A stretch of DNA of 41,696 nucleotides from a virus, in IMG/VR virus record IMGVR_UViG_3300036770_003845, positions 1 through 41,696 of that record; one strand, 5' to 3'. The translations under genes and the position numbers were made by a program. Within the stretch, counting starts at the first letter, position 1, and every line of letters starts with the position of its first letter. The notes under the pieces are model-generated. The model saw only the letters and a list, made by a program, of their open reading frames with translations, ran no database searches and was not told where the DNA came from. Positions 12,030 to 12,950 of the stretch are shown piece after piece.

Positions 12030-12950
12030 ATGGCGACTGTTCGGTCTGCGACGGCACGGTTCTTGGGGGATCAGGCGTCGGTTCATACTCGGGCGCGGTA
12101 CAAAAAAGACATCATGTTGTGGCAACGCTGGTGCGCCGAGCATGACCTTCACGCTCTTGACGGATCGGTGCTGAACGCTCAGCTGTTCATGGAATGGCTA
12201 GAGGAGTCGTATTCGTCGTCGTCGGTGCAGTCACGGTTCTCGGGCGTGTGTCGGTGGTTCGACTACCTGCTCGAGCATGGCGTCATCAAGGGTCACGGGT
12301 TCCGTAACGTGAAGCGCCCGAAGCGTGTCAGGAACTTCTCAGCGGTTCGTATCCCGACTCCAACCGAGATGGAAGTGCTCATGGAAGGTGCCGCGGCGAA
12401 GGGCGTGCGTTGGGAGTGGCTGGTCGGGATGATGGCCTATTGCGGCCTTGATAGCGCCGAGGCTCTACGGGTGACGGCGACTCATGTTCGGACGTGGGAG
12501 GGCCGCACGTTGGTGACGGTGTCGTCTCGGCGTCAGAGACGCCGTGAGGTGCCGGTCGATGGGCGTCTCGAGGTGTTGACGTTGGGCCTGTCGTCGGTGT
12601 TCGGCCCGGCGATCCCGTTGGCGGGCAAGCTGACGTCAGACTGGGTGCAGAAGTACTTGAAGATCCTGTCGGTGGAGACGGTGGGGCGCCATATCACGGT
12701 GCAGGATCTGCGTCGTCACGCTGTGATGCGCCAGGCCGATCGCGGTGTCCCGATTGCGGTGATTGCGAAGTGGCTGGGCCACACGACCGACGAGTGGGTT
12801 CGGACGACTCTCGGGATGGAGAGTTCGGTGGCGGCGGTGTCGACCGCGGATGTTATTGAACAGATCCTGGTGGAGCCGGACGGGGATCGGTTCGGCGCTG
12901 GCCGCGCGCACGATTCGCTAATTGACGGTGCTGCTCAACCCGCTGGCTGA
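12030..12950 (+). CDS. Tyrosine-recombinase-fold protein lacking catalytic residues
   Basis: The 306-residue protein has the two-domain plan of phage integrases: a SAM-like core-binding domain (residues 1-90) and a catalytic-type domain (108-280). Alignment by eye with the family shows YCGLDSAEAL (137-146) where the first catalytic Arg should be, so Asp141 replaces it. QDLRRH (225-230) has Gln225 in place of the first His but keeps Arg228. LGH (249-251) is kept, but no Tyr exists anywhere after His251, so the nucleophile is absent. The fold is probably retained for DNA binding while strand cleavage is lost. The start is an apparently leaderless ATG. The 3' end overlaps the opposing ribbon-helix-helix gene by 98 bases. 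Confidence 0.8.
   Translation: MATVRSATARFLGDQASVHTRARYKKDIMLWQRWCAEHDLHALDGSVLNAQLFMEWLEESYSSSSVQSRFSGVCRWFDYLLEHGVIKGHGFRNVKRPKRVRNFSAVRIPTPTEMEVLMEGAAAKGVRWEWLVGMMAYCGLDSAEALRVTATHVRTWEGRTLVTVSSRRQRRREVPVDGRLEVLTLGLSSVFGPAIPLAGKLTSDWVQKYLKILSVETVGRHITVQDLRRHAVMRQADRGVPIAVIAKWLGHTTDEWVRTTLGMESSVAAVSTADVIEQILVEPDGDRFGAGRAHDSLIDGAAQPAG

Follow-up and report, generated by a model that had tools for sequence, protein, structure and literature searches.

A phage integrase-like protein lacking key catalytic residues of tyrosine recombinases, and candidate operators at two places in its genome

The gene at positions 12030 to 12950 (+ strand) of the virus record analyzed here (41,696 bases, taken in full and referred to below as the window) encodes a 306-residue protein with the fold of a tyrosine recombinase, in which the catalytic Arg-Lys-His-Arg-His/Trp-Tyr set is incomplete: the second Arg and the last His remain, while the first Arg, the first His and the Tyr are gone, and the Lys position is held by an Arg. 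Our preferred reading, which we hold with modest confidence, is that this protein is a transcription regulator derived from a tyrosine integrase, binding its own promoter and that of a gene cluster in a manner similar to the phage repressors MrpR and SroF. We favor this reading because related conserved sites lie upstream of genes at two places, and because the fold is one that phages use for repressors.

Loss of the catalytic residues in a conserved family

The gene starts with ATG and comprises a core-binding domain (residues ~1–97), a catalytic-domain fold (~108–280), and a low-confidence tail (283–306). The protein matches PF02899 (N-terminal SAM-like/core-binding) above the Pfam cut-off (E 2.8e-6) and PF00589 (catalytic domain) with an E value of 7e-5 but below the cut-off (23.1 vs 27.1 bits), and its top PHROG is phrog_1, integrase (E 1.5e-17); across 26 family members, PF02899 matches 18 and PF00589 seven at E 0.01. 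An AlphaFold model built from 26 family sequences (mean pLDDT 80, pTM 0.59) superposes on structures of Xer, Cre, lambda Int and the Tn1549 integrase with Z scores of 15 to 17.5, such that the core-binding and catalytic domain fold of tyrosine recombinases, which an earlier note on this DNA had proposed, is borne out by both the profile matches and the model. The rmsd is 3–4 for Cre and lambda Int with DNA and 10–17 in several of the recombinase alignments as well as in those to MrpR, the high values presumably reflecting a different setting of the two domains.

In the case of the repressors, the model aligns to the SroF-DNA structure (9rd5) with a Z score of 14.0 and an rmsd of 6.1, to 9rgl with Z 12.5, and to MrpR with Z 10.5–10.8 (8a0a: Z 10.5, 237 aligned residues, rmsd 17.2). 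Active recombinases thus outscore the repressors, and the fold alone does not settle function. That Xer and other recombinases give the top fold matches would also suit an architectural or accessory DNA binder serving recombination by host XerC/XerD or another enzyme, instead of a transcription regulator. In 20 records of 10–43 kb, we found no PF00589 outside the family’s own gene and no PF00239, such that a temperate phage would need another enzyme; we note that PF00589 overlooks the family’s own gene in 4 of these 20 records, and a divergent second integrase could therefore escape as well. However, we saw neither an attachment site nor an integrated copy, and the sole relative from a bacterial genome is a 5.2-kb contig, making an accessory role quite unlikely in our view.

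Residue equivalences were taken from a sequence alignment with three integrases (two from Gordonia phages and one from a plasmid) and from one phmmer alignment, rather than from structural superposition. In the former, D141 stands at the first catalytic Arg (GL-D in the window vs GL-R in these relatives with the full catalytic set), as it also does in the phmmer alignment to 9i5v_14, and Q225 stands at the first catalytic His, ahead of the retained R228. The LGH motif lies at residues 249–251, with H251 retained, and the position that holds the nucleophilic Tyr in the aligned integrases is not occupied by a Tyr here. These three losses had been described from the window’s protein by itself, with the question of whether homologues always lack the same residues, and they recur throughout the set of 28 sequences that we assembled (the window, 25 loci, L030 and L092; one is truncated, leaving 27 for later residues). 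Position 141 is Asp in 26 of the 28 and Glu in the other two; Q225, R228, H251, R258 and L261 are each present in all 27 sequences that reach that far, none of which has a Tyr at the nucleophile place; and R167, which we take to stand at the beta-hairpin Lys position known from XerD, is invariant (28/28). As the losses are seen in every sequence found (28, or 27 past the truncation), they are common to the whole known family.

Tyr occurs in at most 10 of 28 sequences at every alignment column from 100 to 306, and toward the end of the fold it is frequent only at position 256, five residues past H251 (10/27). This Tyr, together with the retention of R228, H251 and other basic residues, is what could be said for an active recombinase with an alternative nucleophile. 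Against this, the first Arg and first His are gone from every member examined, and no candidate nucleophile is conserved, as position 256 is Trp in 15 of 27 sequences and Asn in two, and T260 is replaced by Val in two; we consider such an activity highly improbable. The pattern of retention is the one expected of a binding-only protein, in which basic core-binding residues, R228 and H251 are kept and the Arg, His and Tyr are lost: 77 residues are invariant among 12 sequences (non-redundant at 95% identity, with L026 omitted), those in the core-binding domain include R21, K25, K26 and R69, and the net charge of this domain is +3 to +7.

The missing catalytic residues would likewise be expected of a decaying integrase in the course of being lost, a reading that we find scarcely credible, given that the frame is intact in all 27 sequences not cut by a contig end, that no broken or deleted copies were seen in close relatives, and that the control element described below is conserved. 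Furthermore, dN/dS is 0.03–0.42 over 15 hand-chosen pairs (0.03–0.15 in the nine least diverged, with synonymous change near saturation in the distant ones), and values this far below 1 in all 15 indicate purifying selection on the family. The intact length remarked on in the earlier note is therefore shared by the window and its relatives, and its proposal that the protein cannot cleave DNA and is kept for another task is supported, at the level of sequence, by the family-wide losses, the dN/dS values and a control element found in 24 of 24 sequences.

The relatives are uncultured viral contigs, apart from the 5.2-kb contig (L092), which belongs to an Acidimicrobiales metagenome-assembled genome and was the one hit of a second scan of a bacterial genome collection, a first scan having returned none. 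This contig hints at the host class, but it may be a phage contig that was binned with the genome. A structure search returned UniProt A0A6J7WYJ5 (DNA_BRE_C, uncultured Caudovirales phage) with 57% identity over 298 columns, which is within-family level, and a literature search showed nothing on this family among the papers listed. In an annotated phage collection, we found only distant integrases, all from Gordonia phages, of which Bunker gp34, Kiko gp37, WinkNick gp38 and Mutzi gp37 are nearest and of similar length (31–34% identity over ~46% of the query among the matches listed; 25–27% over the full length for Bunker gp34 and Kiko gp37). Unlike the family described here, which lacks the first Arg, the first His and the Tyr, Bunker gp34 and Kiko gp37 retain the first Arg, His-x-x-Arg, the last His and the Tyr. 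Two tyrosine integrases are annotated in each of the phages Kiko, Bunker and WinkNick, and Mutzi has one tyrosine and one serine integrase (L094, L096, L097 and L098).

Conserved sites O1 and O2

Ahead of the gene lies a control element, O1, which in all 24 sequences examined consists, in order, of a conserved block, a box resembling GCGTGC, and an A-tract; near-duplicate loci (L008, L011, L021 and L024) were omitted from this survey, and only the longest repeat per stretch was considered. The block, CTGGGTGTGGG (11921–11931, + strand, in the window), is present in 24 of 24 sequences (23 exactly, with one change in L001), starts 79–122 bases before the ATG, and has a column identity of 0.99 in eight chosen records, compared to 0.53 in the preceding and 0.56 in the following stretch. 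It is followed in the window by a first box, TTTGGCGTGCATCCTG (11935–11950, +), an A-tract, AAAATTT (11955–11961, +; AAAA at the matching stretch in 24/24), and an identical second box (11989–12004, +) with a start-to-start spacing of 54. The GCGTGC core of the first box is exact in 16 of the 24 sequences and has one change in seven and two in L020.

A control region of the gene’s own, as the earlier note had read it, is thus a feature of all 24 sequences; the 16-base repeats that it described upstream are exact in the window, but a second copy (at least 8 bases by the longest-repeat measure) is not universal, being seen in 15 sequences and not in nine. None of 300 shuffles of the window’s upstream stretch contains a direct repeat as long as the 16-base one (shuffle maximum 10), and the second copies of L001 (20 bases), L005 (18) and L023 (14) also lie beyond all of their shuffles, while the 10-base copies in L010 and L018 fall inside the shuffle range. 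Where box copies are identical within one phage, their sequence differs between phages, and no third copy of the repeat was found in the 41.7 kb of the window with up to three mismatches allowed.

In the window, a possible −10 hexamer, TAATTT (12018–12023, +), stops 6 bases short of the ATG, and in 21 of the 24 sequences a TAA lies precisely 12 bases ahead of the start codon; this constant distance suggests a leaderless transcript. L003 and L030 have a purine-rich stretch resembling a ribosome site in place of the TAA, and a sigma-70 scan returned no promoter. Structured RNA was considered and set aside, with no Rfam match in 11600–12300. We also rejected a box dispersed in the manner of stoperators or SPBRE, as own-box matches elsewhere in 16 records scored no higher than the best of 20 shuffles, the two exceptions being a copy inside the gene in G013 (19 of 20) and, in G009, a 16-of-19 match at −2085 (where shuffles reached 15 at most). 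Similarly, CTGGGTGTGGG with GCGTGC was discarded as a wider element: it gave 62 stretches in viral contigs, most of the non-family ones being due to chance, as roughly estimated by hand, and a search with the family profile added no contig to those already known to carry a member.

Scanning the window for its own box led to a second site, O2 (GCGTGCCTCCCGACAC, 8240–8255, +), which lies ahead of the first gene (probable ATG at 8419) of the + strand cluster, and is found in relatives at the corresponding place, behind a conserved block. Its consensus, GCGTGCTTNCCGACAG, which was derived from the same records on which it was scored, is matched there in 15 of 16 records at 12–15 of 15 positions. 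O2 lies 2.5–3.7 kb before O1 in 14 records (3.7 kb in the window), and, in G012, toward the record’s far end, as expected if this record is circularly permuted. It is the top match of the record in 13 cases, is tied in G013, and in G016 (score 12) comes second to a 13 elsewhere. When all 16 records were shuffled, one score of 13 and sixteen of 12 were obtained; among the matches listed, seven per record, the real records hold five scores of 13 outside O2, compared to the one in shuffles. In G003, the record without a scored O2, there is a weak candidate 4.0 kb before O1 (L003:367, two mismatches, chance expectation 0.47). Across eight records, the 16 columns of the O2 core have an identity of 0.91, compared to 0.46 for the flanks. 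O1 and O2 are the only sites that recur at fixed places in the 16 records, and degenerate additional sites are possible.

The two sites resemble one another within each phage. In 14 of 15 records (eight of the 15 being close relatives), the likeness of O1 to the record’s own O2 surpasses that of 96% or more of random windows, the exception being G005, where the likeness is no better than random (0.51); for the 27-base stretch that holds the window’s O1 box, only 0.2% of random windows resemble O2 better. Own O1–O2 pairs score 96, compared to a permuted mean of 87.6 (P 0.0076), in eight records hand-picked as one per group (the proteins of G005 and G007 are 84% alike). O1 and O2 deviate from the consensus in a similar manner in G016 and in G013, and the O1 of G013 fits the O2 of G012 slightly better than its own (13 vs 12). 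This likeness and covariation point to a single factor reading both sites, for which the integrase-like protein is the obvious candidate, being encoded directly behind O1; from the sequence, we infer that it would bind both O1 and O2.

The sites are linked to this protein only by position and co-occurrence, which are compatible with O1 and O2 belonging to some other phage or host regulator, such as the conserved 125-residue protein encoded directly upstream, the GP88-domain protein, or the WhiB-like protein encoded at 14987–15691 of the window, with the integrase-like gene being one target and its product having an unrelated task. We regard this as a real if lesser possibility, considering that O1 is found directly before the integrase-like gene in each of the 24 sequences examined, which is a usual position for the site of an autoregulator.

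Site-like stretches also occur inside the integrase-like gene of some phages, at linker codons ~99–110, with copies at L003:4813–4828, L020:6030–6046 and L021:6313–6329, the latter two being the same as the upstream box over 17 bases. We compared these stretches with 300 synonymous shuffles in 16 phages, with two tests each and thus many in total. The L003 stretch matches its own O2 at 14 of 16 positions (reached by 0 of 300 shuffles), those of L013 and L018 match O1 at 13 and 12 of 16 (0 of 300), and that of L020 matches its own O1 at 16 of 16 (p 0.007), with p values of 0.04–0.05 for L019, L022 and L025. The window, L001, L005, L009, L010, L012, L016, L017 and L023 gave no support for such a site. 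Close relatives disagree in this respect, and the match is partly forced by conserved Pro codons.

A putative regulator and its known counterparts

In a tyrosine recombinase, the two domains close around a half-site like a clamp. If the integrase-like protein is a regulator, an ancestral tyrosine integrase would have become a site-specific DNA-binding protein of the phage that is unable to cut, and would clamp a site of ~16 bases as a recombinase holds one half-site. Such a protein could bind O1, in one or two copies, and O2, with the former controlling its own promoter (autoregulation) and the latter the promoter of the cluster, and it might also bridge or loop the two sites across the 3.7 kb that separate them in the window. 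By analogy with MrpR, repression or autoregulation would be likelier than activation. The tasks offered in the earlier note fare differently on this basis: DNA-binding regulation fits best, considering the O1 and O2 sites and the MrpR/SroF fold, while partition finds no support, as neither AAA_31 (ParA-type) nor ParB_N has a match at E 0.01 in any of 13 records (which may be incomplete). Neither HTH_3 nor HTH_17 was matched in these 13 possibly incomplete records, and thus no repressor or excisionase of the usual kind was identified.

The closest known parallel is MrpR (YopR), the master repressor of the Bacillus prophage SPbeta, which is reported on the basis of structure and experiment (PMC10516654) to be likewise a phage-encoded protein with a tyrosine-recombinase fold that has lost the recombinase function, and to bind DNA as a repressor at a 15-base motif. 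There are also differences. MrpR keeps Lys169 and Tyr304, whereas the present family has an Arg at the Lys position and no Tyr; the first Arg and His are replaced by Val/Ser and Asn in MrpR but by Asp/Glu and Gln here; and MrpR peaks are described at ten promoter regions, in contrast to the two places that stand out in these phages. The second parallel, SroF of phi3T, is, going by the titles of its PDB entries (9rd5 and 9rgl), a phage repressor with a recombinase fold that was solved with DNA and with an antirepressor; our literature search found no paper on it. The structural alignments to MrpR and SroF give identities of ~10–15%, and a search of the family profile against PDB chains returned no match at E 0.01 even to active recombinases, and is thus uninformative about kinship with either repressor.

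The MrpR authors consider the recruitment of tyrosine recombinases as transcription factors to be probably more widespread than anticipated (PMC10516654). If the protein described here is a regulator, it would be a further case from a different phage lineage, in which even the Tyr is lost and for which candidate operators are mapped. For annotators, the family is a caution that an “integrase” annotation does not prove that a phage integrates. More tentatively, one can envisage a clade of probably actinobacterial phages in which such a protein replaces the usual helix-turn-helix repressor, recognizes two promoters that lie kilobases from each other through fast-changing operators that co-evolve, and holds these together in a recombinase-like synapse that does not cut, with the protein and operators setting an immunity-like specificity and some lineages having a third operator copy at the linker codons; we consider this extended picture unlikely as a whole.

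Gene neighborhood

The integrase-like gene is the last of its + strand cluster, which also includes the GP88-domain gene (PF17338; 10092–11318, +). This domain is found in 12 of 13 records, and the gene has a tblastn match in 22 of 25 loci; in four of those 12 records, PF17338 has a second, stronger match elsewhere. The 125-residue ORF directly upstream of the integrase-like gene (11362–11739, +) has a tblastn match in 23 of 25 loci, and no match in Pfam and PHROG searches. All of these locus counts are affected by loci cut at contig ends. An 82-residue ORF at 12853–13101 (−) is convergent with the integrase-like gene, overlaps its 3′ end, and is conserved in 6 of 25 loci by tblastn; it has no Pfam or PHROG match, and looks like a ribbon-helix-helix protein by its sequence pattern.

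Elsewhere in the window, a non-coding block of ~100 bases (7948–8075), with a G/C-rich inverted repeat as well as GGTCAAAAAATACGGGA, is matched by blastn in all 16 records; lying between the terminase region, which runs leftward, and the rightward cluster, it may be a cos or pac site. Finally, two neighboring genes at 33153–35019 (−) each match phrog_2295 and the glycine-rich domain PF21722, suggesting a tandem duplication within the tail region; the GC skew also turns negative there.
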